From: Longimicrobiaceae bacterium
GTDB taxonomy: Bacteria; Gemmatimonadota; Gemmatimonadetes; Longimicrobiales; Longimicrobiaceae
Direction: 5' to 3'
DNA length: 56,017 bases
Assembly: GCA_036375715.1 (NCBI GenBank)
Contig: DASVBS010000046.1
Span: 1-56,017, forward strand
Shown here: one piece after another, positions 12,677 through 42,572 of the stretch
Numbering within the stretch: the stretch's first letter is position 1
Layout: the number at the start of each line of letters is the position of its first letter
Program-made: the position numbers and the translations under genes
The notes under the pieces: generated by a model
Database searches by the model: none
What the model was told of the DNA's origin: nothing
What the model saw: the letters and a program-made list of their open reading frames with translations, nothing else

Positions 12677-12751
12677 GGTCGGTCCTCGGTTGAGCGTGTT
12701 CAGGCTCCGTTCAGCGCTACGGCCGACGGACGGAGGCGAAAGGCAGCGAGG

Positions 12752-14431
12752 TCACAGGTTCCGGCGCTTCAGCTCGTTCACCGCGTGGTCCACCGCGCGC
12801 GCGGTGAGTGCCATGTAGGTGAGCGATGGGTTCTGGCAGGCGGAGGAGACCATGCACGAGCCGTCGGTGACGAAGACGTTCGGGGCATCCCACACCTGGT
12901 TGTAGGAGTTCAGCACGGAGGTGCGGGGGTCGCGCCCCATACGAGCCGTACCCATCTCGTGGATCCCCATTCCCGGGTAGTACTCGTTGTCGAACGTCGT
13001 CACGTTCTTCACCCCCGCCGCCTCCAGCGACTCAGCCATGTCATTCATCATGTCGCGACGCATCAGGCGCTCGTTCTCACCGATGCCGCAGTCGATGGCG
13101 AGGACGGGAAGGCCCCAGGCGTCGGTCTTGCTCTCGTCGATGAAGACCCGGTTGTCGTGGTTGGGGAGCATTTCGCCGAAGGCTGTCGCCCCGATCGTCC
13201 ACTGTCCGGGCTCCGCCATGGCGTCCTTGAACGCCCCTCCGATCCCGAGCTCGGCCACCGCGCGCTGCCAGCCCTGCCGGCTCGCGCTGCCCTGATAGCC
13301 GAAGCCGCGCAGGTACTCACGCTTGTCGCCGTTCAGGTTGCGATAGCGGGGGATGTAGAAGCCGGTCGGGCGCCGGCCATAGTAGTAGCGATCTTCCAAG
13401 CCCTCGATCGTTCCCTGGGCGCCGCAGCGGAAGTGATGGTCCATGAGGTTGTGCCCCAGCTCTCCCGAGCTGCTCCCCAGCCCTCCGGGCCAGATGTCCG
13501 TGGCCGAGCGCATCAACAGCCAGGTGGAGTTCAGCGTGGAGGCGCAGAGGAAGATCACCGGGGCGCTGTACTCCGTGTACTCGCGATTGACGGCGTCGAG
13601 CACGCGCACGCCGGTCGCGCGCTTGCGATCGGGGTCGTAGACGATTTCGGTGACGATGGCGAACGGCCGCAGGGTGAGCCGGCCCGTGGCCATGGCGGCC
13701 GGGAGAGTGGACGACTGGGTGCTGAAGTAGGCACCGAAGGGGCAGCCCAGCCAGCACGCGTCGCGGTACTGGCACTGCGTCCGACCGGGGAGCGGCCGGG
13801 TGAGGTTGGCGGTCCGGCCCGGGATGATGCGCCGATGGCCGTCGAAGTGCTGGCTCAGGCGCTCCGCCACCAGCTCTTCGCCGCAGTTCAGCGGCATGGG
13901 TGGTTGGAACTGCCCGTCTGGGAGCTGCGGCAGGCCTTCGATCGAGCCGGAGATCCCCGCGTGGCGCTCGACGTAGTCGTACCAGGGCGCCAGGTCCGCA
14001 TAGCGGATGGGCCAGTCGATGGCGATGCCGTCGCGCAGGTTCGCCTCGAAGTCGATGTCGCTCCAGCGATAGCTCTGGCGTCCCCACATCAACGAACGAC
14101 CGCCTACCTGGTATCCTCGGAACCAGTCGAAGCGACGGATCTCCGTGTACGGGCTGTCCTGGTCGGACGCCCACCAGTCGAGATTCTTCTCGTTGAGCGG
14201 ATAGTCGCGGCGGAGGACCGGATATGCCTCCTCCATGGCCACCGTGCGGCCGCCGCGATGCGGGTACTCCCAGGGGCCCTTGGTCGCGTTGACGTAGTCC
14301 TTGACGTGCTCGACGTTCTTGCCGCGTTCCAGGAGCAGCGTGCGGAGGCCCTTCTCGGTGAGCTCTTTGGCGGCCCAGCCGCCGGAGATACCCGATCCGA
14401 CCACGATCGCATCGTAGCTCTGCGACTGCAT
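12752..14431 (-). CDS. GMC-family FAD oxidoreductase (sugar/alcohol dehydrogenase large subunit)
   Basis: 559 residues. The N-terminal FAD-binding Rossmann motif VVGSGISGGWAAKEL (about 9-23) and the C-terminal block HEMGTARMGRDP through NPSLTYMAL, with the catalytic His and Asn, place it with the gluconate/fructose/glucoside-3-dehydrogenase subgroup of GMC enzymes. It lacks its own signal peptide, as expected when it is exported with the Tat subunit encoded just downstream. The substrate cannot be read; a cyclic sugar or glycoside is likely, with electrons passed to a cytochrome c. The start at 14431 is supported by a GGGAGG-like site. Confidence 0.88.
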   Translation of the reverse strand: MQSQSYDAIVVGSGISGGWAAKELTEKGLRTLLLERGKNVEHVKDYVNATKGPWEYPHRGGRTVAMEEAYPVLRRDYPLNEKNLDWWASDQDSPYTEIRRFDWFRGYQVGGRSLMWGRQSYRWSDIDFEANLRDGIAIDWPIRYADLAPWYDYVERHAGISGSIEGLPQLPDGQFQPPMPLNCGEELVAERLSQHFDGHRRIIPGRTANLTRPLPGRTQCQYRDACWLGCPFGAYFSTQSSTLPAAMATGRLTLRPFAIVTEIVYDPDRKRATGVRVLDAVNREYTEYSAPVIFLCASTLNSTWLLMRSATDIWPGGLGSSSGELGHNLMDHHFRCGAQGTIEGLEDRYYYGRRPTGFYIPRYRNLNGDKREYLRGFGYQGSASRQGWQRAVAELGIGGAFKDAMAEPGQWTIGATAFGEMLPNHDNRVFIDESKTDAWGLPVLAIDCGIGENERLMRRDMMNDMAESLEAAGVKNVTTFDNEYYPGMGIHEMGTARMGRDPRTSVLNSYNQVWDAPNVFVTDGSCMVSSACQNPSLTYMALTARAVDHAVNELKRRNL

Positions 14432-14536
14432 CGATTCCTCCCAGTTGACAGGCGGGACAGCGGTGGGGATCGCGGGGTGTCGCTGGATAGAATCGGCCCG
14501 CAAGCTCTGCACCGCCAGGGGGGCCCTACAATGACC

Positions 14537-14642
14537 CACGGAGGATCACAGAGGTTCTCACGGAGGGCACGGAGGAGTAAATCGCTTGGAGTTGCGGCAG
14601 AGCGATCTTTCGTCCTCTGTGTCCCTCCGCGTATCCCCCGTG
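14537..14642. repeat. Inverted arrays of CACGGAGG-type units
   Basis: Left arm: CACGGAGGAT 14537-14546, CACAGAGGTT 14547-14556, CACGGAGGG 14559-14567, CACGGAGGAG 14568-14577. Right arm (about 14612-14642) is C/T-rich and roughly complementary, with CCTCTGTG, CCCTCCGCG and CCCCCGTG. The right arm ends 5 bases before the stop codon of the truncated padR gene. The rest of the 14432-14646 gap is GMC leader sequence. Confidence 0.7.
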
Positions 14643-21599: not shown

Positions 21600-21806
21600 G
21601 AGGCGACGGTTGGAGGTTGCGATCCCCGGGAAGGGCGGCGTGGACGACAACAGACTACGTCCGGAAGGTGACGATCGCGTGCCCATGAAAAGGAACCGCC
21701 GGACAAGCTGAACTTGCAGCGGCCACGCCGCCAGCGCTATCGTGCGGGCGCGGCGCCTCTCCCACACGGGCGCCTCGTTCGTCATCCACTCCGCTTACCC
21801 ACCAGA

Positions 21807-24800
21807 ATGAGGACCACCGTGCAGCAAGTCAGCCGCAAGGCACGGTTCGGCGTACGCGCCGGCGCCGGGCTCTTTCTGAGCTTTCTCCTGGGCACTGCCT
21901 GTACCGGCTCCGATGCGGAGCGGCAGGGAATGGCCCCGGTCGAGGAGGTCCCACCCTTCGAAGCCTCCGTGGTCACCCTCGATTCCCCCCAGGCCGCGCA
22001 GGCGGCCGCCGCAGCGGAACAGGCGGTGAACGCACAGGTGGCCGACGGACTGGAGCTGAGCCTCTGGGCGTCCGAGCAGCTCATTGCCGATCCGATCGCC
22101 ATCTCCATCGATAGTCTGGGACGAGCCTTCGTGACCCGGACGAGCCGCACGGATCAGGCGGAGATCGATATCCGCGGGCACCAGGACTGGATGGTGGAGT
22201 CGATCACCTTCACCGATGTCGAGGACAAGCGCCGGTTCTACATGCGCGAGCTCGCGCCCGAGCGCAGCGCGGAGAACGAGTGGCTCGAGGACTACAACGG
22301 CGACGGGTCGCGGGATTGGCGCGATCTCACCGTCCACAAGGAGAGCGTCTACCGCCTCGAGGACCGCAACGGAGACGGCGTCGCCGACTTCTCCCAGAAG
22401 GTCATCGAGGGCTTCAACGACGTGATCTCCGACGTCGCGCATGGCATCCTCGCCTACGACGACCAGCTCATCCTCACCCTCTCGCCCGACATCTGGCGCC
22501 TGCGCGACGAGGACGGCGACGGGGTGATGGATACCCGACAATCCATCGCCCACGGTTCGGGTATTCACATCGGCTTCGGTGGCCACGGCCTCTCGAGCCC
22601 GGTGATCGGCCCGGACGGCAGGCTCTACTGGAAGATGGGCGACCTCGGCCTCAGCTACACCACTCCGGAGGGGGAACGCCTCGTCAACACCAACAGCGGC
22701 GCCATCATCCGGGCGGAGCCCGACGGCAGCAACATGGAGCTGTTTGCGACCGGGCTGCGCAACCCGCAGGAGTTCGCCTTCGACAAGTACGGCAACCTCA
22801 TCTCGGTGGACAATGACGGCGATCACCCGGGTGAGTCGGAGCGGGTGGTCTACATCACCCAGGGCTCCGACGCCGGCTGGCGGATCAACTGGCAGTTCGG
22901 TAAGTACGTCGATCCGGACAACAACACCTACAAGGTCTGGATGGACGAGGGGCTGTACCGCCCGCGTTTCGAGGGCCAGGCGGCCTACATCACCCCGCCC
23001 ATCGCCTCGTATCATCCGGGTCCGTCGGGCTTCGCCTACAACCCGGGTACGGCGCTGAGCGACGAGTGGGATGACCACTTCTTCGTCACCATCTTCCCGG
23101 GCTCGCCCAGCAACGCCCGCGTCAACGGCTTCACGCTGGAGCCGAAGGGGGCCGGCTTTGAGCTCGGCGAGGACAAAGAGGTGGTGCGCGGCGTCCTCTC
23201 TGTCGGCATCAATTTCGGGCCCGACGGCGCCCTCTATCTGACGGACTGGACCAACGGGTGGGCGCCGAATGACAGCGGCCGCGTCTGGAAGCTGGATACC
23301 CCGGCCACCGCGAATTCGGAGATTCGCCGGCAGACGCAGCAGCTCATCGCCGAGCCGTTCACCGACCGGCCAACCAACGAGCTGGTGCAGCTCCTCGAGC
23401 ACGAGGATATGCGGGTGCGCCTGAAGGCCCAGTTCCACCTGGTGGACCGCGGCGCGGCGGAGGAGCTGCTCGCAGTGGCGAACGAGTCGGACAACCAGCT
23501 CGCCCGCATCCACGCCCTGTGGGGCATCGGACAGCTCTCCCGTCGCGATTTGTCGCACGCGCAGAAGCTCGTGCCTTTCCTGCAGGACGACGACGGGGAG
23601 ATACGGGCCCAGGCGGCCAAGCTGTTGGGAGACGTCCGCTATGCGGAGGCCGCAGACCAGCTCGTCGCCCTGCTCGCCGACCCGGCACCGCGCGCCCGGT
23701 TCTTTGCCGCGGAGGCGCTGGGGCGCATCGGTTACCGCCCGGCGGTGCAGCCCATCGTGCAGATGCTCGCCGAGAATGACGGCGAGGACGTCTACCTCCG
23801 CCAGGCCGGCGCGACCGCCCTGGCGCGCATCGGTGACGCGAATGCGCTCGCGGCACTGGCGGACCATCCGTCGCGCGCGGTGAGGGTGGCGGCGGTCATC
23901 GCCCTGCGGCGGATGAAGGATCCTGCGATCGCCCGCTTCATGCAGGACGAGGATGAGTACGTGGTCACGGAGGCGGCGCGGGCGATCAACGACGACGGCG
24001 GCATCGAGGGGGCGCTCCCGGCGCTGGCCGCCGCGCTAGAGGAAACCCGGTTCACCAGCGAGCCGCTCCTGCGGCGGGCGATCAACGCCAACCTGCGGTT
24101 GGGCAGCGCCGAGGCCGCCCAGCGCGTCGCCGACTACGCCCTGCGGACAGACGCGCCGGACTCCCTCCGCGCCGAGGCGGTGGCGGTGCTCGGTGTCTGG
24201 CCCGCCCCGTCGATCCTCGACCGGGTAGACGGCTATCACATCGGTGCGGTGCAGCGGGACACCTCCATCGCGCGCGATGCCCTCACCCGCCTGATCGAGC
24301 CGCTCTTCGATTCCGGCAACGCCGTGATCGAGGTGGCGCTCGCCGAAGCGATCGGCCGCCTGGGGGTGATCGAGGCGGCCCCGCAGCTGCTGACCAAGGC
24401 GCAGTCCGGAGAGACACTCGAAGTCCGGATCGCCGCCATCGAGGCGCTGCAGCGGCTGGGAGATCCGCGGCTCGGCGACGCCGTTCGCACGGCGCTGACG
24501 GACGAGGAGACGCGCGTCCGGATGGCCGCGCTGACCGCTCTGACCGAGGCGAACCTCCCTGAGGATACCAAGGTGGAGCTGCTCACCTCGGTGGTACGCG
24601 AGGGGGGCGTTGCGGAGAAGCAGGCGGCGCTCGCGGCGCTCGGCGAGCTCGAGGGGGAGAGCGCCCGAGAGGCGCTCACACAGCTCGTCAACGATCTGAT
24701 CGCGGGCCGGGTGGACCCGGGGATCCAGCTCGACGTGGCCGAGGCAGCTCGGGCGACCGGGCACCAGCCCTTGATCGCGCAGTTGGACCAGTACGACGCC

Positions 24801-25145
24801 GAGCGAAAGGCGAGCGGCGATCCGCTCGTCGAATACGGGGACGCGTTGCACGGCGGGGATGCCCGCGCGGGCCAGCGGGTCGTCTTCCAGAATCCCGCTG
24901 CGCAGTGTACCCGTTGCCACAGCATCACCGGCAACGCGGCGGGGGCTAACGTCGGACCCCCGTTGCGCGGGGTGGCCTCCAGGCTGAGCCGGCAGCAGCT
25001 GCTCGAGGCGCTCGTTGCTCCGAGTGCGAGGATCGCTCCCGGGTTCGGCACGGAGGGCTCGCCTTCCGCGATGCCTCCGATGGGCCAGATCCTCACCCGG
25101 CGCGAGATCCGCGACGTGGTGGAGTTCCTGAGCCAGCTTCAATAG
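21807..25145 (+). CDS. Large lipoprotein: beta-propeller dehydrogenase domain, HEAT repeats and cytochrome c (PVC-type)
   Basis: 1112 residues. The signal peptide ends LLGTACTG (lipobox). Residues about 60-500 form a glucose/sorbosone-dehydrogenase-like propeller (for example NSGAIIRAEPDGSNMELFA and NPQEFAFDKYGNLISVDND). Residues about 525-1000 are a run of HEAT-like repeats (VRLKAQFHLVD, IRAQAAKLLGDVRYAEA, VRVAAVIALRRM and others). The C terminus carries one haem site, CTRCH at residues 1034-1038. This architecture matches the 'PVC-type haem-binding CxxCH protein' family common in Planctomycetota and Verrucomicrobiota. A role in periplasmic sugar oxidation with electron transfer to its own haem is likely. 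It is divergent from the GH43/dehydratase operon. Confidence 0.88.
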   Translation: MRTTVQQVSRKARFGVRAGAGLFLSFLLGTACTGSDAERQGMAPVEEVPPFEASVVTLDSPQAAQAAAAAEQAVNAQVADGLELSLWASEQLIADPIAISIDSLGRAFVTRTSRTDQAEIDIRGHQDWMVESITFTDVEDKRRFYMRELAPERSAENEWLEDYNGDGSRDWRDLTVHKESVYRLEDRNGDGVADFSQKVIEGFNDVISDVAHGILAYDDQLILTLSPDIWRLRDEDGDGVMDTRQSIAHGSGIHIGFGGHGLSSPVIGPDGRLYWKMGDLGLSYTTPEGERLVNTNSGAIIRAEPDGSNMELFATGLRNPQEFAFDKYGNLISVDNDGDHPGESERVVYITQGSDAGWRINWQFGKYVDPDNNTYKVWMDEGLYRPRFEGQAAYITPPIASYHPGPSGFAYNPGTALSDEWDDHFFVTIFPGSPSNARVNGFTLEPKGAGFELGEDKEVVRGVLSVGINFGPDGALYLTDWTNGWAPNDSGRVWKLDTPATANSEIRRQTQQLIAEPFTDRPTNELVQLLEHEDMRVRLKAQFHLVDRGAAEELLAVANESDNQLARIHALWGIGQLSRRDLSHAQKLVPFLQDDDGEIRAQAAKLLGDVRYAEAADQLVALLADPAPRARFFAAEALGRIGYRPAVQPIVQMLAENDGEDVYLRQAGATALARIGDANALAALADHPSRAVRVAAVIALRRMKDPAIARFMQDEDEYVVTEAARAINDDGGIEGALPALAAALEETRFTSEPLLRRAINANLRLGSAEAAQRVADYALRTDAPDSLRAEAVAVLGVWPAPSILDRVDGYHIGAVQRDTSIARDALTRLIEPLFDSGNAVIEVALAEAIGRLGVIEAAPQLLTKAQSGETLEVRIAAIEALQRLGDPRLGDAVRTALTDEETRVRMAALTALTEANLPEDTKVELLTSVVREGGVAEKQAALAALGELEGESAREALTQLVNDLIAGRVDPGIQLDVAEAARATGHQPLIAQLDQYDAERKASGDPLVEYGDALHGGDARAGQRVVFQNPAAQCTRCHSITGNAAGANVGPPLRGVASRLSRQQLLEALVAPSARIAPGFGTEGSPSAMPPMGQILTRREIRDVVEFLSQLQ

Positions 25146-25647: not shown

Positions 25648-25980
25648 CGGCTCCTCCGTACGGCTTCCCGGATCGCCACGGCGACTCGGCATCGCCGATC
25701 GGCGTATCGGGGAAGGGGTGGATGGGTGGACGGTAAGCATCATCTCCTGGACACGGTTCTCGCGGGACGGCCCAAGTCTGCGACCGTCCTGAGCTTCCAC
25801 AGCCTATGGCAAGTTGGGCGCCACTGGAGGTGAAGTGCTCGCCGACGGCGTCGCGCCATCGTATCCTATCGGCTATTCCGAGTGATCTGCGCCCGGGTGT
25901 CTCCGTCCGAAGGGCGAAGCCCCCAGCTTCAGCGGAGGCGCCCGCGTGATCTGCTCCCCATCTCCTTCCGGGAACGTCCT
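25648..25980. other. Divergent intergenic region upstream of the SGNH hydrolase
   Basis: 333 bases between diverging genes. I see no convincing short gene, hairpin with T run or repeat array. It presumably contains both promoters; no strong sigma-70-like pair stands out. Confidence 0.45.
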
Positions 25981-26751
25981 ATGGCTCCAATCCAGCGAAT
26001 CACGATGGTTCTGACTCTCCTCGCGGCGCTCTGCTCGGCGACCCCTCTGAGAGGTCAGGAGCCCGCCCGCGATCAGGACGCGGAAGCCCGCGCACGGCAG
26101 GAAAGGCTGCTGAACGACTGGGCGAACCTCGCGCGTTATCGAGAGGAGAACGCGGCTCTGGGGGATCCGAAGCCGGGAGAGCAGCGGGTGGTCTTCATCG
26201 GGAACTCGATCACCGAGGGGTGGGCCCGCTACTTCGACGAGCAGTTCCCCGGCAAGCCCTACATCGGACGGGGGATCGGCGGTCAGACCACGCCGCAGAT
26301 GCTGGTGCGCTTCCGCCAGGACGTGATCGACCTGAAGCCCGCGGTGGTGGTCATTCTCGCGGGGACGAACGACATCGCGGGGAACACGGGCCCATCCACC
26401 CCGGAGATGATCCAGGGGAACCTGGCTTCCATGGCGGAGCTTGCCCGTGCCCACGGGATCGAGGTGGTCCTCTCCTCCATCCTGCCCGCCTCCGACTATC
26501 CCTGGCGTCCCGGCCTGAACCCCGGCCCGAAGATCGTGGCCATCAACGAGTGGCTGAAGCAGTACGCGGAGGAGAACGACTTCGTCTACCTGGACTACCA
26601 TTCCGCCATGGTCAACGACGAGCTCGGCCTTTCCCCGGAGCTAGCGCGGGACGGGGTGCACCCGACCGAGGCCGGCTACCAGATCATGGCGCGGCTCGCT
26701 GAGGAAGCCATCGCCAAGGCACTCGCCAAGCGCGCAGGTCGGTCGCAGTAA
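25981..26751 (+). CDS. Secreted SGNH/GDSL-family hydrolase
   Basis: 256 residues with a cleavable signal peptide (about residues 1-25). The four SGNH blocks are present: FIGNSITEG with nucleophile Ser76, IGRGIGGQTT (Gly), AGTNDI (Asn130), and DGVHPTEAGY with Asp224 and His227. Proteins of this class near SusCD loci are often acetyl-xylan or other carbohydrate esterases, removing acetyl groups from glycans. The substrate here is inferred only from context. It stands alone on the plus strand, 200 bases before the PQQ-dehydrogenase cluster. Confidence 0.9.
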   Translation: MAPIQRITMVLTLLAALCSATPLRGQEPARDQDAEARARQERLLNDWANLARYREENAALGDPKPGEQRVVFIGNSITEGWARYFDEQFPGKPYIGRGIGGQTTPQMLVRFRQDVIDLKPAVVVILAGTNDIAGNTGPSTPEMIQGNLASMAELARAHGIEVVLSSILPASDYPWRPGLNPGPKIVAINEWLKQYAEENDFVYLDYHSAMVNDELGLSPELARDGVHPTEAGYQIMARLAEEAIAKALAKRAGRSQ

Positions 26752-26950: not shown

Positions 26951-29746
26951 ATGCGAGCGCTGCGCCCTTTTTGTGCCGCTCTGCTGTTGCCAGCGGTGCT
27001 CATCGGCTGCCGGGATCGTTCGCGTGTGGCCCAAGCCGGCGGCGAAGCGCCGGAAGAGAGCCGCTTCACCCGCACCTTCGTGGCGGAGGGGCTCGACGAG
27101 CCGATGGCGATGGATTTCGATGCGGACGGCCGGGTCTACGTCATCGAGCGCACCGGGGGGTTGCGGCGGATCGACCCCGAGACGGGGGAGAACGTCACCC
27201 TCGGCAAGATTCCCGTCTTCACGGACGGTGAGGGCGGGTTGCTGGGAATCCTGCTCGACCGCGACTTCGAGCGGACCCGGCGGCTCTTCCTCTACTACAC
27301 GGCGGCCGGCGACGAGCGCATCGCCCGCCTTTCCCGGTTCAATCTTGGCCCCGACGGAATGCTCGATCCGAGCTCGGAGAAGGTGTTGCTGAGCTGGGAG
27401 CACGATGTCGCCTCGCACATGGGCGGGGGGATGGCCTGGGAGCCGGGAACCGGGAATCTCCTGCTGGCAGTCGGCGAGAACTCCATCCCCACCCAGTACA
27501 CACCCATCCACTGGACGGAGCCGGGCGGGCGCCGCGAGGACTCACAGCGCACCGCCGCCAACACCAACGACCTCAGAGGCAAGATCCTCCGCATCCACCC
27601 GGAGGAGGACGGCAGCTACACGATCCCGGAGGGCAACCTATTTCCGCCGGGCACGCCCGGAACTCGTCCGGAGATCTATACCATGGGGAACCGCAATCCG
27701 TGGCGGATCTCCTTCGACTCGGAGCGCGGGTCGCTTCACTGGGGCGAGATCGGACCCGACGCTGGGCGCGATTCGGCAGGAATTGGCCCGCGGGGCTACG
27801 ACGAGTTCAACGTGGCCACCGGACCGGGCAATTTCGGGTGGCCGTACTTCATCGGGTACAACCTCGCCTACAACAGCTACGATCGAGAGACGGGCACCTA
27901 CGGCCCCCCTTTCGATCCCGAGCATCCGCAGAACCTCTCGCCCAACAATACCGGGCTGCGAGACCTTCCGCCGGCGCAACCGGCGGTTCTCGCTTACCCG
28001 TACGCGGTCTCGGAGGAGTTTCCGCAACTCAGCAGCGGCGGACGGGCGGCCGTGGGCGGACCGGTGTTCCGCAAGGCGGACTTCGCCGATGCTCCGCGCC
28101 CGTTCCCCGACTACTACGAGGGCGGCTGGTTCGTAGTGGACTTCGTCCGCAACTGGATCATGGTCCTGCGGCTGAACGACGAGCTGACGCGGGTGGTCTC
28201 GATGGAGCGCTTCCTGCCCCGGGAGCGCTACAACATGCCCATCGACATGCGCTTCTCGCCGCTGGGCGACCTGTACGTGCTGGAGTACGGGGCGGCTCCG
28301 AGCGGTCGACTTTCCCGCATCTCCTACAATGCCGGGAATCGTCCACCGGTCGTGACGCTGGCGGCGGATCGCACGGCGGGCGCCGTTCCGCTGCGGGTGG
28401 CGTTGTCCACGGCGGGCACCGTTGACCCCGATGGCGACGAGCTCTCGTTTGACTGGGAGCTGACCGCTCCGGGTACGGCTTCCGGCGCTTCGCCCTCCCT
28501 GCGCGGCGAGCGTCCGGAGCTGACCCTCACGGAGCCCGGCGAGTACCGCGTGCGCCTCGTTGGCACGGACCCGGGGGGAGCGAGCGACACCGCCTCGCTG
28601 GTGATCCTGGCGGGCAACGAGCCGCCCTCGGTGGACCTGACGATCACCGCCGGGAACCGCAGCTTCTACTTCGTCGGCGATACGATCGCTTACACCGTCG
28701 ACGTCGCGGACCAGGAGGATGGGTCCCTCAGCCAGGGCGGGATCGCGGCGGCGGCGGTCGACGTGACGCTGGAGTTCCTGCCCTCGGGGATCAGTGGCGA
28801 GGATCTCGAAGGGATCGACAGCGTGCCGGCCACGGTATCGATGCGGAAGGCGCGGGCCGAGGGGATCATGGCGGGGAGTGACTGCGCTGCCTGTCACAGC
28901 GTGGACGCGCCTCTGGTCGGCCCCGCGTTCGGCCAGGTGGCCGAGCGTTACCGCGAGGATCCCCAGGCGATTCCGTATCTGACGCAGAAGATCATCGCCG
29001 GAGGGAGCGGGGTCTGGGGGGATGTGCCCATGCCCGCCCACCCGGGGCTGAGCACGGCGCAGGCTCGAACGCTTGCGGAGTACGTGCTCTCCCTGGGCGA
29101 CGAAGCCTCGGGGCCGCTGCCAATTCCGCCGAGGGGGTCGGTCGTGCTCGATCCGGGTGAGCCCGCCCGTCCGGGCTCGGCCTACCTCCTGCGCGCGAGC
29201 TATACCGATCAGGGTGCGCCCGGTGCGGCGCCGATCCGGGAGGCGCAGACGATCCTGCTCCGCTATCCGCGCTTCGCGCCGGAAGAAGCGGATTCGATAT
29301 CCGAGGGGACCTCCTTCACACCGTCGACCAACGACCCTGGCTTCATCATCAATGCCGACGGGGCGCACCTTGGTTTCCGCGGGGTCGATCTGGAGGGGAT
29401 CGGAGCGATCGAGGTCGGGGCGCTGACCCGCTTCTACACCTGGTCGCACTTCATTGGCGGGAGCATGGAGGTGCGGCTCGACGCCGTCGACGGATCGCTC
29501 ATCGGTGGCCCGGTGGAGCTCGTGCCGCCGCCGCCGCCGGCACCGAGAGGGGATCCGGGGCAGGCTGCGCCGTCCGCGGGGATGGTGCTCGGCGCTGACC
29601 TGGAGCCGCCGACCCGCATCCCCATCCGGGCCACGACGGGATTGCACGACGTCTACATCGTCTTCCGCAATCCTGACGCACGGGAAACCGACGCCCTCAT
29701 GCTGCTCCGTTCGATTGAGTTCCTCAGGGGAGAGCCGGGCCAGTGA
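26951..29746 (+). CDS. Lipoprotein fusion: PQQ-type sugar dehydrogenase, PKD domain and cytochrome c
   Basis: 931 residues. The N terminus is a lipoprotein signal (LLLPAVLIGC). Residues about 35-460 form a glucose/sorbosone dehydrogenase propeller (for example GLDEPMAMDFDADGRVYVIE, YTMGNRNPWRISFD, GDLYVLEYG). Residues about 462-555 are a PKD-like Ig domain (AGTVDPDGDELSFDWEL). A cytochrome c domain follows, with CAACH at residues 645-649. The final 150 residues look like a CBM6-type sandwich (SHFIGGSMEVRLDAVDG). It would oxidise a sugar in the periplasm and pass electrons to its own haem. ATG 26951 is chosen for the signal peptide; a second ATG at 26921 is possible. The gene overlaps the next one by 4 bases. 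Confidence 0.88.
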   Translation: MRALRPFCAALLLPAVLIGCRDRSRVAQAGGEAPEESRFTRTFVAEGLDEPMAMDFDADGRVYVIERTGGLRRIDPETGENVTLGKIPVFTDGEGGLLGILLDRDFERTRRLFLYYTAAGDERIARLSRFNLGPDGMLDPSSEKVLLSWEHDVASHMGGGMAWEPGTGNLLLAVGENSIPTQYTPIHWTEPGGRREDSQRTAANTNDLRGKILRIHPEEDGSYTIPEGNLFPPGTPGTRPEIYTMGNRNPWRISFDSERGSLHWGEIGPDAGRDSAGIGPRGYDEFNVATGPGNFGWPYFIGYNLAYNSYDRETGTYGPPFDPEHPQNLSPNNTGLRDLPPAQPAVLAYPYAVSEEFPQLSSGGRAAVGGPVFRKADFADAPRPFPDYYEGGWFVVDFVRNWIMVLRLNDELTRVVSMERFLPRERYNMPIDMRFSPLGDLYVLEYGAAPSGRLSRISYNAGNRPPVVTLAADRTAGAVPLRVALSTAGTVDPDGDELSFDWELTAPGTASGASPSLRGERPELTLTEPGEYRVRLVGTDPGGASDTASLVILAGNEPPSVDLTITAGNRSFYFVGDTIAYTVDVADQEDGSLSQGGIAAAAVDVTLEFLPSGISGEDLEGIDSVPATVSMRKARAEGIMAGSDCAACHSVDAPLVGPAFGQVAERYREDPQAIPYLTQKIIAGGSGVWGDVPMPAHPGLSTAQARTLAEYVLSLGDEASGPLPIPPRGSVVLDPGEPARPGSAYLLRASYTDQGAPGAAPIREAQTILLRYPRFAPEEADSISEGTSFTPSTNDPGFIINADGAHLGFRGVDLEGIGAIEVGALTRFYTWSHFIGGSMEVRLDAVDGSLIGGPVELVPPPPPAPRGDPGQAAPSAGMVLGADLEPPTRIPIRATTGLHDVYIVFRNPDARETDALMLLRSIEFLRGEPGQ

Positions 29747-30567
29747 GTGTTCTGCGCCGGTTCACCCGTTGCTTCCGTAGCGCCGGCGCGGGCGAACGCG
29801 CCACGCGGGCTGTTGGACGAGCGGTCCGGGGCTGTAGATGCGCCGCCCGGACGGGTGCGAGGGCAACCGCGATCGTTACCATCTGCTGGAGCGCCGGCCT
29901 CGCCGCGTGCGCTCCGTCGGTCCGCCCGCCTGCGTCGGCCCCGCCGGGATTCGTTTCGCTTTTCGACGGGCGCACCCTGAACGGCTGGCACGTCAGCCGG
30001 ACCTCTCACCAGGGCACCACCCCCGACGTGCGGGTCGAGGACGGAGCGATTGTCCTGCGGCAGAACCCCTACGGCCAGGGGGGCGTGCTGCTGACGGACC
30101 GCGAGTACGGCGATTTCGAGCTGTACCTGGAGGTCCTCCCGGATCGGGGCACCAACGGCGGCATCTTCTTCCGCTCCACGGAGAGCGGCTCGGCGTACCA
30201 GATCGAGGTGGAGGGCGCCGGCCTCGGCGGAACCGGCAACCTGCTGGGGGAGATGCTGAGGGTGACCACCGACGCCCGGGCGGAACGGCTGAGGGAGGTG
30301 TGGAAGGAGGGGAGCTGGAACTCCTTCCGCCTGCGCGTCCAGGGCGAAGTCCCCAGGATCACCCTCTGGGTGAACGAGACGTTGATGTGGGACGTGGTGG
30401 CGGAGCGAAACGACCACGTCGTCGGGGCGCGTGAGGGGCACATCGGGCTGCAGGTGCACTGGAGCAGCACCTACTCGCCGGTGCCTGGTGGAAGCTGCTG
30501 CGAGCGCTCGTGGCGCCCGGGCGCGGCGCACCGCTACCGCAACGTCTGGATCCGCGAGCTGCCATGA
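29743..30567 (+). CDS. DUF1080 (3-keto-disaccharide hydrolase-type) exported protein
   Basis: 274 residues. An N-terminal region with a hydrophobic stretch and lipobox-like Cys (SAGLAACAP, about residues 50-58) leads into a DUF1080 concanavalin-like sandwich. The signatures are GFVSLFDGRTLNGWH (about 68-82), NGGIFFRS (about 139-146), YQIEVEG and the closing YRNVWIRELP. DUF1080 proteins include hydrolases acting on 3-keto-glucosides and often occur near GMC or Gfo/Idh/MocA oxidoreductases. Start GTG overlaps the preceding stop (GTGA), and its own stop overlaps the next start (ATGA). The N terminus before the Cys is long and Arg-rich for a signal, so the true start may be further in. Confidence 0.85.
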   Translation: MSVLRRFTRCFRSAGAGERATRAVGRAVRGCRCAARTGARATAIVTICWSAGLAACAPSVRPPASAPPGFVSLFDGRTLNGWHVSRTSHQGTTPDVRVEDGAIVLRQNPYGQGGVLLTDREYGDFELYLEVLPDRGTNGGIFFRSTESGSAYQIEVEGAGLGGTGNLLGEMLRVTTDARAERLREVWKEGSWNSFRLRVQGEVPRITLWVNETLMWDVVAERNDHVVGAREGHIGLQVHWSSTYSPVPGGSCCERSWRPGAAHRYRNVWIRELP

Positions 30568-31400
30568 TCGGTCGGTCGCTTCTCGCTGCGCTCTTTTTGA
30601 TTCTCCTGGTCGTCGCGAACGGAGCCGGCCAGGAGCGAGTGGTGACCAACCAGCTCGGCATGGAGTTCGTGCGGATCGAGCCGGGGAGCATGGTCGTTGG
30701 GCGCTTTCAACCCACCTGCGCGGAGCCGGACCCGCAGGCGGATGCGGATCCGCGCACCGCGTGGACCGAGCAGGACTATCGCCGTTGTCGGGAGATCGTG
30801 AACCGTCAGGCATCGCCAGGATTCACGGTAACGATCCAGGAGCCTTTCTACATCGGCCGCTATGAAGTGACGCAGGACGAGTGGCGGCAGGTGATGGGGT
30901 CGAATCCCTCCTTCTTCCAGGGCGATCGGATAGAGGGAGGCTCCGGCAGGCACCCGGTGGAGAGCGTGACCTGGGAGGAGGCGCTCGCCTTCGCCAAGCG
31001 CCTCAGCGAGCTCGATCCCGAGGCCGACTACCGGCTTCCCACCGAATTCGAGTGGGAATACGCGGCCCGCGCCGGGATGGATCGCGAGCCAAGCTGGGAG
31101 GAGATCCGGGCGAGTGCCTGGATCGGCCTGGTCGACAAGGGGACTACGCAACCGGTGGGCGGGAAGGCACCGAATGCCTGGGGGCTGTACGACATGCTCG
31201 GCAACGTCTGGGAATGGGTGGCGGACTTCTACAACGGTAGAGTCTTCCCCGACCCGGAGCCGCCAACGGAAGGTGCCACCCACGTGCTGCGGGGCGGCAG
31301 CTTCCTCTCCGACGTGAAGAACGCCACCTGGTTCACGCACGCCGGAGGTCCTGGTAACGGCTTCGACGTCGGTCTCCGCCTCGTCCGCGAGGCCCACTGA
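30564..31400 (+). CDS. Secreted SUMF1/formylglycine-generating-enzyme-fold protein lacking the active-site cysteines
   Basis: 278 residues with a signal peptide (hydrophobic about 5-20). The SUMF1 fold is shown by NQLGMEFVRIEPGSMVVGRF near the N terminus, PFYIGRYEVTQDEWRQVMG, HPVESVTWEEALAFAKRLSE, YRLPTEFEWEYAARAG, GLYDMLGNVWEWVADFYNG and HVLRGGSFLSD. True formylglycine-generating enzymes have two Cys that bind copper close to the C terminus. Here the segment after GGSFLSD has none, so sulfatase activation is unlikely; a binding or structural role is more probable. It is translationally coupled to the DUF1080 gene. Confidence 0.88.
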   Translation: MIGRSLLAALFLILLVVANGAGQERVVTNQLGMEFVRIEPGSMVVGRFQPTCAEPDPQADADPRTAWTEQDYRRCREIVNRQASPGFTVTIQEPFYIGRYEVTQDEWRQVMGSNPSFFQGDRIEGGSGRHPVESVTWEEALAFAKRLSELDPEADYRLPTEFEWEYAARAGMDREPSWEEIRASAWIGLVDKGTTQPVGGKAPNAWGLYDMLGNVWEWVADFYNGRVFPDPEPPTEGATHVLRGGSFLSDVKNATWFTHAGGPGNGFDVGLRLVREAH

Positions 31401-31540
31401 CGCACCCGATCGCCACTGGCCTGCTCTGGATACGGCGTGTCCGCTCTGGACAACGACCGCCGCTCGTCCCAACCTAACGTGGCCTTCCGAACGCCTCATC
31501 GGAAGCTACTCCCCCTTTTCCTGAAGCCCGTCAGAAGCCG

Positions 31541-34500
31541 ATGAGACTTCCGTCCCTATCTGCCGGCCGCTTTCTGCTGGCCGCGATTCTCGTTCTCCTG
31601 CTCGGCTGCGATCGCTCTCGGGCCGAGCCCCGTGTTCTCGTCTTCGGCTCCCCTGATGCGGGGACGCGTGAGATGGTTGGCGTGCTCGCGGAGGAGGCGA
31701 GTCGCAACGACGTGGAGCTGCGGATGAGCAGCGATCCGGCGGTGGTCACGGAAGACAGCCTGGCCCTCTATCGCGGCTTCGTCCTCCTGAACACCTCGGC
31801 CGACGAGCTGACCCATCGTGCGCAGGCTGACCTGCGCCGCTTCATCGAGGCTGGCGGCGGGTTCCTGTTCATCGGAGCGAAGCCGGCTCGCACCTGGCCG
31901 TGGCTGGACTCGATTGCCGCGGGCCCCGAGGGTCCGGTGGAAGCCGCGGAAAACGTGTATCTGATCCGTTCTGGTACGCAGCCAGAGGACTGGCAGGACC
32001 AGGGCTTCCTCGAGCGCCTGAGGGAGGGCTTCGCGCTGGCCGCCGGCGGCGAACCGCGCTATGGACGAATCGAGTCCGAGCGTGTGCCTGACGCCAGCCG
32101 CTTCGAGCAGCAGATTCTGGTGGAGGGAACGCTGAACGAGCCGACGGAGCTCGCCGTCGCCTCCGACGGACGGGTGTTCTTCACCGAGCGGCAGGGCGCG
32201 CTGAAGCTGTACGATCCGGCAACCGGCAGTGACCGGGTGATCCACCAGTTCGACGTCTTCACCGAGGAGGAGAACGGGCTGATCGGGATCACCCTGGATC
32301 CGAACTTCGACAGCAACGGTTGGATCTACATCACCCGCACGGTGGGCGATACGCTCGACGCCCGTCATCGGGTGGCGCGCTTTACCTTCGACGGCCAAGC
32401 CATCGGCGACGAGCGCGTGCTCCTCGAGGTGCCCATCGACCGCGGTTGCTGTCACACCGGCGGGTCGATGACCTTCGACGGTCACGGCAACCTGCTCGTC
32501 TCCTTCGGCGACAACTCGAACCCCTTCGCCACCTCCTACGCCCCTCTCGACGACCGGCCCGGTCGGGAGCTGTGGGACGCGCGCCGGTCCAGCGCGAACA
32601 CGCAGGACCTTCGCGGTAAGATCATCCGCATTCGCCCGCAACCGGACGGGACGTACACGATCCCTGAGGGGAACCTCTTCACGGATCCGGAACAGGGGCG
32701 CCCCGAGATCTACACCATGGGGCACCGAAACCCGTACCGGATCAGCTACGACCCGGTGCGTGATTACCTCTTCTGGGGGGATGTGGGACCGGACGCGCGA
32801 GCCGACAGCACCACCGGCCCGATGGGTTACGACGAGGTGAATCGTGCGCGGGAGGCAGGGAACTTCGGCTGGCCTCTGTTCATCGCCGACAACAAGGCCT
32901 ACCACGATCGTGATTTCGCTACGGGTACGGTGGGCGAGCCTTTCGATCCTGCGCGGCCGATCAACGACTCCCGCAACAACACGGGAGCGCGCGTGCTTCC
33001 CCCCGCGCAGCCGGCGATGATCTACTACCCTTACGAGCGGAGCGAGGAGTTTCCCCGCGTCGGGGAAGGGGGAAGGACCGCGATGGCCGGTCCCCTGTAC
33101 CGGACGGCTCCGTTCGGCGATTCCGACGTGCGCCTGCCCGACTACTACGACGGCAAGTTCATCCACTACGACTGGATCCGTGGGTGGATGATGGCCACCA
33201 CGCTGGACGAGAACGGCGACTACGTCTCCATGGAGCCGTTTCTCGAGCACCTGACCTTCGATCACCCCATGGATCTGGAGGTCGGTCCGGACGGCTCGCT
33301 GTACCTGCTCGAGTACGGGCCGCTCTGGTTCGCGCCGAATCCCGCGGCGCGGCTGAGCCGCATCGTCTACCACCGTGACAACCGGCCGCCGCGGGCGGTG
33401 ATCTCCGCCAGTCCCGCGGAGGGCGCCGCTCCGCTCGAGGTGACCCTTTCCGCGGAGGGCTCCGCCGATCCGGACGAGGACGACCGGCTGGAGTACCGCT
33501 GGCTCTTCGCCGACGGTAGCTCTCTCACCGGGCAGTCGATCACGCGCACCTTCGAGCAGGCCGGCGAGCACGTCGTGCAGCTCGTCGTCTCCGACGGCTC
33601 CGGTGCCGCGGACACCGCGGCGACTACCGTGACGGTCGGCAACGACCCGCCGGTCCTGACGATCGACCTCGAGGGCAATCGGTCCTTCTTCTGGAATGCC
33701 GCCACGCGCAACTACCATGTCTCGGTTCGGGACACGGAAGATGGCACGCTGGGGGAGGGAGCGGACCCGACGCGCCTGCGGGTTGCTCTTGAGTTCCAGC
33801 CGGGAATCCCGCTCGCCGCCGAGCCTGTCGGCCATCAGACCGAGCAGACTCCGGCCGGATTGGCCTACATCCAGCAAAGTGACTGCAGCGGGTGCCACGG
33901 GATCAACGAGGCCTCCGTGGGCCCGAGCTTCCGTCGAGTCGCCGAGCGCTACGCTGGCGCGGACACTGCAGCAGAGCGCCTCGTCCGCAAGATCATCGAG
34001 GGAGGGAGCGGGGTCTGGGGAGACCAGGTGATGCCTGCCCACCCGGATATGAGCGAGGACGTGGCGGCCGAGATCGTCCGCTACATCTTCTCCCTGGTTG
34101 CTCCGGGAGAGACCCTGCCGACGGAAGGAATGCTGACGCTCAACCGGCACCAGCCGGGAGAGACCGGGGCCTACGTGCTCACGGCGACCTACGTCGATGG
34201 CGGGGCGAGTGGAGCGCCCCCGCTGGAGGCGCGGCAACAGGTGGTGCTTCATGCCCCCGTGATTCGCGCCACGGATGTGGCAGACCGGTGGGGGATGCTG
34301 GCTCCGGCGGATTCGGCCAACGCGGCCGAGGGAAGCCCGCTGGCCGTGGTGGCGGACGGAGCGTACCTCCACCTCGGCGCGCTCGACCTCACTGGCGTGG
34401 CCCAGTTGGTGGTGACGCTGGAGGAGGTGAGCGGCGAAATCACCCTCGAGCTCCGCGCCGGAGCTCCTGATGGCGAGAGGATTGCGACAGGATCGGTGAC

Positions 34501-34687
34501 GGCACCGTCTATGGCGGCACCGGTCGAGGCGCCTCTGACGCTAGCCGCCGAAGGTGAGCACGACCTCTATCTCGTTGTACGCACGCAGGATCCGCTGGTT
34601 GGTCCCTGGTCACCTGCGGCGCGCATTCGATCGCTTCGCTTCGATCAGCGCGGGACCGGCGGGGCCGCGGGAACGGAGGCCGAATGA
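31541..34687 (+). CDS. Lipoprotein fusion: ThuA-like domain, PQQ-type sugar dehydrogenase, PKD domain, cytochrome c
   Basis: 1048 residues. A lipoprotein signal (LVLLLGCDR) is followed by a ThuA-like flavodoxin-fold domain (about residues 26-165; FVLLNTSADELTH, IEAGGGFLFIGAK). A sugar dehydrogenase propeller follows (about 189-610; EPTELAVASDGRVFFTE, YTMGHRNPYRISYD). Then come a PKD domain (about 612-703; SADPDEDDRLEYRWLF) and a cytochrome c with CSGCH at residues 782-786. A C-terminal CBM-like sandwich ends the protein. It is a paralogue of the 26951 gene with an added N-terminal module. ThuA proteins are linked to disaccharide use, so a keto-sugar or disaccharide substrate is plausible but unproven. 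Confidence 0.88.
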   Translation: MRLPSLSAGRFLLAAILVLLLGCDRSRAEPRVLVFGSPDAGTREMVGVLAEEASRNDVELRMSSDPAVVTEDSLALYRGFVLLNTSADELTHRAQADLRRFIEAGGGFLFIGAKPARTWPWLDSIAAGPEGPVEAAENVYLIRSGTQPEDWQDQGFLERLREGFALAAGGEPRYGRIESERVPDASRFEQQILVEGTLNEPTELAVASDGRVFFTERQGALKLYDPATGSDRVIHQFDVFTEEENGLIGITLDPNFDSNGWIYITRTVGDTLDARHRVARFTFDGQAIGDERVLLEVPIDRGCCHTGGSMTFDGHGNLLVSFGDNSNPFATSYAPLDDRPGRELWDARRSSANTQDLRGKIIRIRPQPDGTYTIPEGNLFTDPEQGRPEIYTMGHRNPYRISYDPVRDYLFWGDVGPDARADSTTGPMGYDEVNRAREAGNFGWPLFIADNKAYHDRDFATGTVGEPFDPARPINDSRNNTGARVLPPAQPAMIYYPYERSEEFPRVGEGGRTAMAGPLYRTAPFGDSDVRLPDYYDGKFIHYDWIRGWMMATTLDENGDYVSMEPFLEHLTFDHPMDLEVGPDGSLYLLEYGPLWFAPNPAARLSRIVYHRDNRPPRAVISASPAEGAAPLEVTLSAEGSADPDEDDRLEYRWLFADGSSLTGQSITRTFEQAGEHVVQLVVSDGSGAADTAATTVTVGNDPPVLTIDLEGNRSFFWNAATRNYHVSVRDTEDGTLGEGADPTRLRVALEFQPGIPLAAEPVGHQTEQTPAGLAYIQQSDCSGCHGINEASVGPSFRRVAERYAGADTAAERLVRKIIEGGSGVWGDQVMPAHPDMSEDVAAEIVRYIFSLVAPGETLPTEGMLTLNRHQPGETGAYVLTATYVDGGASGAPPLEARQQVVLHAPVIRATDVADRWGMLAPADSANAAEGSPLAVVADGAYLHLGALDLTGVAQLVVTLEEVSGEITLELRAGAPDGERIATGSVTAPSMAAPVEAPLTLAAEGEHDLYLVVRTQDPLVGPWSPAARIRSLRFDQRGTGGAAGTEAE

Positions 34688-34816
34688 GGTTTTGAGCTCG
34701 AGCTCAGGCATCCGTACCCAAAACCCGATCCGTCAATAGAGCAGTAGACGCGTCCGAGTCTGTCATCGCCGGCTGAAGCCGAGCCGGTCGCCCGGTCATC
34801 AACAGCGGAGGTGCAC

Positions 34817-35653: not shown

Positions 35654-35729
35654 GCGGGTCAGACCGCGGTGAGGAAGTCGGGCGCTCAGCCCCGACCAAC
35701 GTCGCACCGACCCCGCCTGTAGAAGACAG

Positions 35730-40986: not shown

Positions 40987-41123
40987 GGTAGCTAATTCCC
41001 ACAACCCGTGCTGTGCCTGGCCGCGTCCGGGCTGCGCGGGTTCGCGCCCCGTTCGACGCGGGACCCGCGAGATCCGCGGGGTCGATCCCCGTGTCCTCAC
41101 TCCACGCCTCTCTGGAGACCACC

Positions 41124-42572
41124 ATGTCTGATGGAAAGGGTATCTCCCGTCGGAGCTTCTTCAAGCACTCCACGACCGGGATCGCCGCCGCAGCCGCATT
41201 CCCCACCATCATTCCGAGTCGGGCGTTCGGCGCCAACGACCGCGTGAACCTCGCGGTGGTGGGCATTCGGGGGCAGGGAGGTGCACACCTGAGCGGCTTC
41301 AGCCGCATCGAGAACGTCCGCATCGCGGCGATCTGCGACGTCGACCAGAACCTCTTTCCCGACCGCGTGAGCGAGTTGCGGGAGCGGACGGGCGAGGAGC
41401 CGCGCACGTACACGGATATGCGCCGGCTGTTCGAGAACCGCGACATCGACGCGGTCACTTTCGCCATCCCGAACCACTGGCATGCGCTGGCGTCGATCTG
41501 GGCGGCGCAGGCGGGCAAGCACGTGTACGTGGAGAAGCCGTCTTGCCACAGCGTCTGGGAGGGGCGGCAGATGGTCAACGCGGCGCGCGCCAACAATGTG
41601 GTGATGCAGGTTGGCTTCCAGAACCGCTCACGCCCGAACGTCAACGCCGCGATCAAGTTCATGCGCGAGGGTGGGATCGGTAAGATCTACATGGCGCGCG
41701 GGCTCTGCCACAAAGCACGGCCGAATATCGGCCGCTATCCAGACGGCCCCATGCCCGATGGGTCGGCGCCCTTCTCCTTCACCGTCGGTGGGCGCGGCTC
41801 CGTGGGTCCGTACACCCGGGCCTACCTGGACAAGGTGGATTACGACATGTGGATCGGACCGGCTCCGGCGAAGCCGTTCAACCCCAACCGCTTCCACTAC
41901 AACTGGCACTGGCAGTGGGAGTACGGCAACGGAGACACCGGAAACCAGGGTCCGCACCAGCTCGACGTGGGCCGCTGGGGCCTCGGGCGTGACGACTATC
42001 CGGTCAAGATCACCTCTCACGGTGGCACCTTCATCCACACCGATTCGGCCCAGACCACGCCGAACACGCAGACCACGATCTTCGAATACGCCGACGGCAC
42101 GATCTTCGAGTTCAGCACCCGCGGCCTGCCGACCAACGCCGACGGTGAGATCATGATCGGCGACATCTTCTACGGCAGCGAGGGCCGCCTGGAGATCGAC
42201 GACGGCGGCAACTGGAAGACCTACATGGGCTACAACAACGAGCCCGGACCGGATTCGTCCAACATCGAGACCGAGGCCTCCGACGCGCGGATCACGGTGG
42301 GCACGGGGTCCTCGGGCCACTACGGCAACTTTATCAACGCCGTGCGCTCCGGGAATCCGGCGGATCTGAACTGCGACATCGAGGAGGGCTACCGCTCGAG
42401 CGTGCTCGCCCACCTCGCCAACATCTCCTACCGGCTCGGTCGCGAGCTCAAGTTCGACGGCGCCACCGAGACCTTCGTCGGCGACGACGAGGCCAACGCC
42501 ATGCTCAAGGACGTTTACCGGGAGCCGTTCGTGGTACCGGATCTCTCGGGCCCGAGGACGACGAGTCGGTGA
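41124..42572 (+). CDS. Tat-exported Gfo/Idh/MocA-family oxidoreductase
   Basis: 482 residues. The N terminus carries a twin-arginine signal (SRRSFFKHSTTGIAAAAAF, about residues 9-27). The NAD(P)-binding Rossmann motif is AVVGIRGQGGAHLSGF (about 45-60), followed by the family EKP motif (YVEKPSCHSVWEG, about 135-147). The C-terminal domain has WHWQWEYGNGDTGNQGPHQLDVGRW-type residues (a GNQGPHQLDV signature). Exported members retain a tightly bound cofactor and act on sugars or glycosides, including 3-keto interconversions. The ATG at 41124 begins the Tat signal; upstream frame extension is spurious. Confidence 0.92.
   Translation: MSDGKGISRRSFFKHSTTGIAAAAAFPTIIPSRAFGANDRVNLAVVGIRGQGGAHLSGFSRIENVRIAAICDVDQNLFPDRVSELRERTGEEPRTYTDMRRLFENRDIDAVTFAIPNHWHALASIWAAQAGKHVYVEKPSCHSVWEGRQMVNAARANNVVMQVGFQNRSRPNVNAAIKFMREGGIGKIYMARGLCHKARPNIGRYPDGPMPDGSAPFSFTVGGRGSVGPYTRAYLDKVDYDMWIGPAPAKPFNPNRFHYNWHWQWEYGNGDTGNQGPHQLDVGRWGLGRDDYPVKITSHGGTFIHTDSAQTTPNTQTTIFEYADGTIFEFSTRGLPTNADGEIMIGDIFYGSEGRLEIDDGGNWKTYMGYNNEPGPDSSNIETEASDARITVGTGSSGHYGNFINAVRSGNPADLNCDIEEGYRSSVLAHLANISYRLGRELKFDGATETFVGDDEANAMLKDVYREPFVVPDLSGPRTTSR

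Follow-up and report, generated by a model that had tools for sequence, protein, structure and literature searches.

A 56,017-nt stretch of DNA from a Longimicrobiaceae bacterium (here called the window) carries two genes for large lipoproteins on either side of genes for a DUF1080 protein and a SUMF1-fold protein. The question raised by this locus is whether the encoded proteins oxidize a sugar outside the cytoplasm, hand the electrons to a fused cytochrome, and then cleave the oxidized product. Oxidative 3-keto glycoside cleavage is a recently recognized alternative to ordinary glycosidases; to our knowledge, the oxidants described for it depend on flavin or NAD. The region is rich in sugar genes, and those discussed below are as follows.

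26951..29746, + strand: GSDH-type six-bladed propeller/PKD/c551-type cytochrome c lipoprotein 1 (P0001), from Pfam and fold
29743..30567, + strand: DUF1080 (3-keto-disaccharide hydrolase, PF06439) lipoprotein, starting at a GTG that overlaps the preceding stop
30564..31400, + strand: secreted SUMF1/FGE-fold protein lacking C-terminal cysteines, starting at an ATG that overlaps the preceding stop
31541..34687, + strand: truncated ThuA/GSDH propeller/PKD/c551-type cytochrome c/CBM6-like lipoprotein 2 (P0004), from Pfam and fold
11891..14539, − strand (context): Gluconate_2-dh3 subunit (11891–12676) and GMC oxidoreductase (12752–14539)
21714..25145, + strand (context): DUF7133 propeller/HEAT/cytochrome c protein; start approximate
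25882..26751, + strand (context): GDSL-type esterase/lipase, just upstream of the lipoprotein 1 gene
41013..42572, + strand (context): Gfo/Idh/MocA oxidoreductase

Composition and conservation of the cluster

Pfam searches bore out the initial annotation of four real coding sequences, with two GSDH/PKD/cytochrome lipoproteins bracketing the DUF1080 and SUMF1-fold genes. GSDH, PKD, and Cytochrom_C domains were detected in both large proteins, both have CxxCH motifs, and their heme domain matches c551/c552 structures; no GMC domain was found by Pfam in the proteins of the four-gene cluster. Lipobox-like ends (LIGC, LLGC, and LAAC) were read from the translations. The reading frame of lipoprotein 1 opens at 26921, but a better signal peptide is obtained from the ATG at 26951. 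A common order of propeller, PKD, cytochrome c, and CBM-like tail had been proposed for the two proteins; the first three elements are present in both, and the tail does not extend to protein 1. The CBM6 match is confined to protein 2, where it is sub-threshold (20.6 vs. a cut-off of 28.9), and the predicted fold of that tail supports a CBM6 sandwich (1gmm, E 2.4e-7). The ThuA domain (PF06283) of protein 2, previously described as an addition, is partial and below the cut-off (31.4 vs. 33.4 bits, profile 2–100 of 209), while many relatives carry a full-length ThuA (242–247 bits); by sequence comparison it therefore reads as an eroded, truncated remnant of a full domain. Proteins 1 and 2 are 40% identical to each other and 45–52% identical to proteins of other genomes, which argues against a recent tandem duplication of the two genes and marks them as apparently old paralogues, judged by BLAST identities and not by a tree.

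The DUF1080 protein matches PF06439 over the whole profile (1–187 of 187; 108.5 bits, cut-off 26.8). Elsewhere, DUF1080 proteins act on 3-keto sugars, and certain members have another chemistry, as in a xanthanase (PMC9007349, excerpt). The 278-aa SUMF1-fold protein matches PF03781 at 132.4 bits (cut-off 23.3). Its only cysteines are Cys52 and Cys75, and the C-terminal part, where we take the active-site cysteine pair of formylglycine-generating enzymes to lie, has none; the homologue in a related genome, G001, likewise lacks them. The protein is therefore not considered a formylglycine-generating enzyme. Its best sequence match among solved structures is TvpA of Treponema (2y3c, E 1.8e-29), a C-lectin protein of the SUMF1/FGE fold. 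TvpA is a diversity-generating-retroelement target; for the window protein, the association is with DUF1080, and in two genomes only. Close SUMF1 homologues occur in five other genomes of the 395 from the phylum, and no DUF1080 or GSDH gene was found within ~1.5 kb of them.

The GTGA (29743) and ATGA (30564) overlaps reported earlier are present, such that the first gene overlaps the second, and the second the third, by 4 nt each; the fourth begins 140 bp past the stop of the third. A co-occurrence check recovered only the GSDH-DUF1080-SUMF1 trio, in G001, a second genus in which the four-nt overlaps are also found and the gene for lipoprotein 2 does not adjoin the trio. No SUMF1 gene was found near the GSDH-PKD-cytochrome genes of 80 named loci. 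The idea of a self-contained, conserved four-gene unit was abandoned because the trio alone recurs.

The propeller and its cofactor pocket

AlphaFold models place a six-bladed GSDH propeller in both large proteins, and the closest solved folds are PQQ sugar dehydrogenases. For P0004, the nearest is 3a9g (Z 37.5, rmsd 2.7 over 331), with PQQ-bound 3das at Z 33.6 and 1cq1 at Z 31.2; for P0001, the values are Z 39.8 (rmsd 2.2 over 327) for 3a9g and Z 36.3 for 3das. The likeness to the soluble PQQ sugar dehydrogenases (sGDH, Asd/YliI; PF07995) covers the fold, the catalytic His, and the Arg-Asn motif. In contrast to those enzymes, the window proteins have a fused PKD domain and cytochrome c, a lipoprotein anchor, no RxR pair, and an out-of-register Lys377, and they score far below the cut-off of NCBIfam TIGR03606 (64.9 and 74.9 bits vs. 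434.55).

Pocket residues were compared, with ligand geometry judged from the sequence alignment, in 96 family members. Besides P0001 and P0004, these were the open reading frames of the 80 named loci and the in-phylum regions whose GSDH match exceeded 380 residues; truncated and shorter matches were left out, and the fusion protein P0005 was displayed separately. The roles of the His144 and Arg228-Asn229 equivalents are partly those given in PMC6881789 (excerpt), which also ties Arg408 and Lys377 to the PQQ site; PMC1781467 (excerpt) places both Arg406 and Arg408 beside the glucose site. We take Gly247-Pro248 to be calcium ligands and Arg406 to be a PQQ-site residue. Equivalents of His144, Arg228, and Asn229 are present in 96/96 members, both window proteins included. 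Arginine is absent from the R408 position in every member (0/96; I/M/V/T/S instead) and occupies the R406 column in nine, leaving 87/96 without it. Lys377 is replaced in register by M/I/A/S/V, and an invariant Arg stands one column later (n = 96). Both window proteins have GP at the Gly247-Pro248 column, where a nearby insertion (GPDA...GPxG) leaves the register ambiguous. For the PQQ and calcium ligands that the initial annotation proposed to check, the picture is mixed: the His and the Arg-Asn are kept and a Gly-Pro apparently so, whereas the RxR pair is lost and Lys377 falls out of register. The cofactor site looks altered. Conserved arginines (R396, R400, R547, and also R512 in P0004) are candidates for taking the place of RxR.

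Searches for PQQ biosynthesis genes bear on the same question. No PqqC match was obtained in the window's genome, where the control was also silent in that genome's own search, or in the genomes of 50 named carriers, again with a silent control. Among the 395 phylum genomes, PqqC was found in 0/24 carriers; the same model matches 50/395, the window's genome not among them. PqqE matches in the window's genome were all sub-cut-off, and the controls gave matches in 14/14, so this search is given little weight. The window's genome also encodes two classical RxRD GSDHs (L005 and L006), so the lack of PqqC does not discriminate and was rejected as proof against PQQ. E. coli, similarly, has YliI yet is not known to make PQQ. 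The label "PQQ-dependent" therefore keeps the backing of the fold, the catalytic His, and the Arg-Asn motif, and is weakened by the lost RxR pair and the undetected PqqC in carriers.

The AA12 quinohemoprotein CcPDH of Coprinopsis joins a propeller to a built-in heme and a carbohydrate-binding module (PMC6881789, excerpt), and the GSDH-cytochrome c-CBM proteins of Teredinibacter turnerae follow the same three-part plan (PMC12055684, excerpt). The window proteins are set apart by a c551-type heme rather than an AA8 heme b, PKD and ThuA modules, and a link to DUF1080. Their sequence identity to AA12 is 12–16%, and the similarity is a fold-level comparison (Z 27.9–28.9 for P0004 and 27.8–30.0 for P0001), with Arg273, His539, and His560 forming the AA12 PQQ site.

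DUF1080 and GSDH genes in other genomes

The named loci are the best 80 of at least 590 confirmed, not a random sample. A DUF1080 gene lies directly upstream of, and co-directional with, the GSDH-PKD-cytochrome gene at 7/80 (gaps of 10–1332 bp). The background density of DUF1080 matches (785 across 294.6 Mb) would give ~0.16 such cases at distances of up to 1.5 kb. This density was taken from the genomes of 50 of the 80 loci, which also served for the PqqC and fusion searches. The corresponding Poisson value (4.6e-10) should not be taken at face value, because the 1.5-kb distance was set after the seven cases were known and the loci lack independence, with L082, L095, and L103 apparently belonging together. 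When the flanks are considered as a whole, the excess of DUF1080 is weak (7 observed vs. 3.5 expected, P 0.06), and it stands out only in the position directly upstream; the DNA retrieved around GSDH contains none at 73/80 loci, and DUF1080 is abundant in the carrier genomes examined. In-phylum regions have DUF1080 near GSDH at 2/19, one of them operonic.

The window's own genome encodes P0005, a DUF1080-ThuA-GSDH lipoprotein in a single open reading frame followed by a cytochrome c gene; its ThuA scores 138.7 bits, above the Pfam cut-off. No other such triple fusion was found in the 395 phylum genomes or in the 50 named-carrier genomes, the latter searched without a positive control. PA14-cytochrome c-DUF7133-DUF1080 fusions were found. 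In Chitinophaga niastensis, all modules lie within one cassette, and locus L145 reads MFS, Gfo/Idh/MocA, TIM isomerase, cytochrome c, DUF1080, ThuA, and ThuA/GSDH/PKD/cytochrome c. An isomerase homologue is near GSDH at 6/80 named and 4/19 in-phylum loci. From gene order and fusion, a functional tie between the GSDH-cytochrome lipoproteins and DUF1080 is supported; this link was not found in the literature searched, a set with few subscription papers.

A candidate oxidize-then-cleave module

The cluster is, tentatively and with slightly less than even confidence, best read as a periplasmic oxidize-then-cleave module with a candidate substrate and cofactor. The GSDH-DUF1080 tie upholds that part of the original proposal, which fails for a self-contained four-gene unit. 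The large proteins would be membrane-anchored extracytoplasmic sugar dehydrogenases of the sGDH/Asd fold, whose propeller may oxidize a glycoside hydroxyl, putatively at C3; the remodeled pocket would contain PQQ or a similar cofactor, and the conserved His would act as the base. The fused c551-type cytochrome would take up the electrons and pass them on to respiration, the PKD and CBM6-like domains could hold the protein on polysaccharide, and the DUF1080 lipoprotein would then cleave the resulting keto-glycoside. The SUMF1-fold protein is a possible lineage-specific, C-lectin-like binding partner.

Periplasmic oxidation followed by DUF1080 cleavage resembles the LacABC and BT2156–BT2160 pathways, similar companion genes to which occur at loci L145 and L097. 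There, oxidation is presumably the task of a GMC complex with FAD or of an enzyme of the Gfo/Idh/MocA type, rather than of a GSDH propeller. LacABC consists of a GMC subunit, a Gluconate_2-dh3 subunit, and a cytochrome c; the window encodes the first two domains at 11891–14539, which we take to be a LacA/LacC-like pair (compare LacABC in PMC9007349, excerpt). BT2158 is described as a periplasmic glycoside 3-dehydrogenase (PMC11300592, excerpt), and deletion of BT2157 or BT2158 is reported to have left growth on raffinose-family oligosaccharides unimpaired (PMC11501099, excerpt).

The GMC pair suggests another division of labor, in which this LacA-like FAD dehydrogenase makes the 3-keto-glycoside, and the sugar that DUF1080 releases from it is then oxidized at C1 by the GSDH-cytochrome proteins. 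The nearest solved relatives of the large proteins are, we assume, aldose C1 oxidizers, and LacABC with DUF1080 is an established pairing (PMC9007349, excerpt). We consider this somewhat unlikely, as the pair lies ~12 kb away on the opposite strand, outside the operon, and the single DUF1080-ThuA-GSDH reading frame would go unexplained.

The altered pocket also allows a propeller without PQQ that serves as a sugar- or polymer-binding module, its cytochrome relaying electrons for another dehydrogenase. HHIP, a hedgehog-binding protein for which we know of no enzyme activity, shares the fold (Z 30.4 for P0004 and 33.2 for P0001). The loss of the RxR pair in nearly all members, the out-of-register Lys377, and the undetected PqqC in carriers also speak for this reading. 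The universal His, Arg, and Asn and the invariant Arg beside the Lys377 column nevertheless argue for a retained active site, and PQQ binding in AA12 enzymes relies on ligands at shifted positions (PMC6881789, excerpt), making a pure binding role improbable. Least probable is an ordinary glycan-utilization neighborhood of independent sugar-catabolism genes with no joint function. The unconserved four-gene order, the lack of SUMF1 at the named loci, and the abundance of sugar and DUF1080 genes speak for it, but the four-nt overlaps in a second genus, the fusion protein, and the enrichment directly upstream make it very unlikely.

Returning to the oxidize-then-cleave reading, it is possible, if doubtful, that the widespread ThuA/GSDH/PKD/cytochrome c lipoproteins form a further glycoside 3-dehydrogenase class: six-bladed propeller quinohemoproteins with a remodeled cofactor site that would supply keto-glycosides made outside the cytoplasm to DUF1080, sometimes within the same polypeptide. 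If so, they would be a third kind of oxidant for this chemistry. At least 590 Bacteroidota loci would then gain a class of substrates to test, and the alteration at RxR would caution curators against assuming PQQ.

Domain content of the four genes

Translation and domain profile matches bore out all four open reading frames proposed in the initial annotation.

26921 or 26951 to 29746: protein 1, GSDH, PKD and Cytochrom_C
29743-30567 (+): DUF1080 protein
30564-31400 (+): SUMF1-fold protein
31541-34687: protein 4, GSDH, PKD, Cytochrom_C, truncated ThuA and sub-threshold CBM6

In the profile search, GSDH (PF07995, the six-bladed sugar dehydrogenase propeller family) scored 109.6 bits in protein 1 and 141.8 bits in protein 4, and the DUF1080 and SUMF1-fold proteins scored well over their respective cut-offs. 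The ThuA domain claimed for protein 4 is present but truncated (31.4 bits, below the 33.4 cut-off), and the claimed CBM-like part is a CBM6 match in protein 4, below threshold. The reported overlaps are genuine: junctions 1/2 and 2/3 share four bases each (GTGA and ATGA), and 140 bp separate genes 3 and 4. Read from the sequence, proteins 1, 2 and 4 have putative lipobox-like cysteines and protein 3 a putative plain signal peptide.

The best match of the SUMF1-fold protein among solved structures is TvpA (E 1.8e-29), a C-lectin-fold protein. Its only two cysteines both lie within the N-terminal third; therefore, it lacks the C-terminal cysteine pair of FGE. It may have a binding role.

Just upstream lies another heme-linked propeller, a DUF7133 propeller/HEAT/cytochrome c protein (21714-25145, +), and immediately downstream are a pentapeptide-repeat protein and a YceI-like protein (34811-36495, +). 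At 36504-36633, amid 67% GC, AATTACGAATT-type units form an AT-rich inverted repeat. It has two copies in the window versus none expected by chance, and may be a small repeat of mobile or intergenic type. Positions 39904-55286 form a glycan-utilisation region with a DGOK kinase, Gfo/Idh/MocA, two SusC/SusD-like pairs and GH30_2.

Propeller fold and cofactor site

AlphaFold models of proteins 1 and 4, built with 25-sequence alignments, had mean pLDDT values of 80.8 and 81.6, respectively. Both propellers were nearest to PQQ-type sugar dehydrogenases (3a9g, 2ism, 7cdy, 2g8s, PQQ-bound 3das and PQQ-bound soluble glucose dehydrogenase, sGDH), with HHIP and AA12 the next nearest folds. The window proteins scored 65-75 against TIGR03606, short of its 434.55 cut-off.

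The assignment of PQQ to these propellers held in part in an alignment of 96 family propellers that took E. coli YliI and two standalone GSDHs from the window's genome as references. The catalytic His and Arg-Asn pair are conserved in 96/96, but the RxRD seen in the references is lost (second Arg 0/96, first Arg 9/96), and the Lys377 position has another residue in register, with Arg one column later in 96/96. PMC6881789 describes sGDH Lys377 and Arg408 as PQQ-site residues, and AA12 enzymes as binding PQQ through ligands relocated elsewhere; the aligned site is therefore remodelled, not proven empty.

A PqqC model matched 50 of the 395 phylum genomes (44 above cut-off); comparison of the two genome lists gave 0/24 among phylum genomes with a protein-4 homologue (E <= 1e-30), and PqqC was not found by this model in the window's own genome. 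Nor was it found in 50 named-carrier genomes, a search in which controls were also silent. The window's genome nevertheless encodes two standalone GSDHs with classical RxRD (L005 and L006), which would likewise need scavenged PQQ; missing PqqC is therefore weak evidence against PQQ use.

Gene order and domain fusions

The four genes had been proposed as a self-contained unit, but the whole order was found nowhere else among the named loci and phylum regions compared. The GSDH-DUF1080-SUMF1 trio recurs on contig C60 of G001 (same family, other genus), with a DUF1080 protein 67% identical to the window's and four-base ATGA overlaps at both corresponding junctions.

The named loci of the GSDH-PKD-cytochrome family are the best 80 of at least 590, nearly all from Bacteroidota, with one Rhodothermales record. 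Among these 80, the proposed co-occurrence was seen for DUF1080 (7/80) but not SUMF1 (0/80). All seven DUF1080 genes are co-directional with and upstream of the GSDH gene, at gaps of 10 to 1332 bp. From a background of 785 DUF1080 matches in 294.6 Mb (50 of the named-carrier genomes), chance would place about 0.16 co-directional DUF1080 genes in the 1.5 kb upstream of GSDH and 3.5 anywhere in the flanks, versus seven observed in these best 80 of at least 590 loci. In the window's phylum, DUF1080 lies near GSDH in 2/19 regions, operonic in L153 and on the opposite strand in L169.

Contig C76 of the window's own genome (locus L171) encodes a fusion, P0005, beside a cytochrome.

L171:10044-12788 (-): P0005, DUF1080-ThuA-GSDH in one ORF
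L171:9402-10040 (-): next ORF, c-type cytochrome (58.3 bits)

P0005 scored 156.5 bits for DUF1080, 138.7 for a full ThuA and 124.6 for GSDH, and has a putative lipobox-like cysteine. No further triple fusion was found among 395 phylum and 50 named genomes; in G097, G106 and G370, DUF1080 is fused to ThuA, and the DNA stretch examined around each showed no GSDH. In Chitinophaga niastensis (L145), a single-strand cassette runs MFS, Gfo/Idh/MocA, xylose-isomerase-like TIM barrel, cytochrome c, DUF1080, ThuA and ThuA/GSDH/PKD/cytochrome c, and L097 partly resembles it. Isomerase homologues lie near GSDH in 6/80 named loci (best 80 of at least 590) and 4/19 in-phylum loci. Two Bacteroidota proteins fuse PA14, cytochrome c, DUF7133 and DUF1080 (L178:2738-6499, -; L180:2292-5963, -). 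A HEAT-repeat protein (L179:2394-5876, -) ends in two C-terminal DUF1080 domains, and L181 and L182 have two each in ORFs of about that length.

Candidate pathway and its alternative

The best-supported reading is a putative two-step pathway in which a GSDH-fold, heme-linked lipoprotein would oxidise a substrate outside the cytoplasm and DUF1080 would cleave the oxidised product. PMC9007349 links DUF1080 to 3-keto sugars in other systems (BT2157 characterised, CCNA_01705 proposed), PMC11300592 describes BT2158 as a periplasmic glycoside 3-dehydrogenase, and PMC4765114, citing Ampomah et al. (2013), links ThuA/ThuB to 3-keto-disaccharides. The GSDH protein may itself make the 3-keto product. 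Alternatively, it could oxidise C1 of sugars freed by a LacABC-like route, an explanation that is live because the same window holds the following pair, about 12 kb from the four genes.

11891-14539 (-): GMC oxidoreductase and adjoining Gluconate_2-dh3 genes

This pair is LacC/LacA-like.

The four-gene finding is real and conserved in part. It represents known parts in a new combination, plus an unexpected change of the cofactor site, and is a useful lead, short of a discovery.
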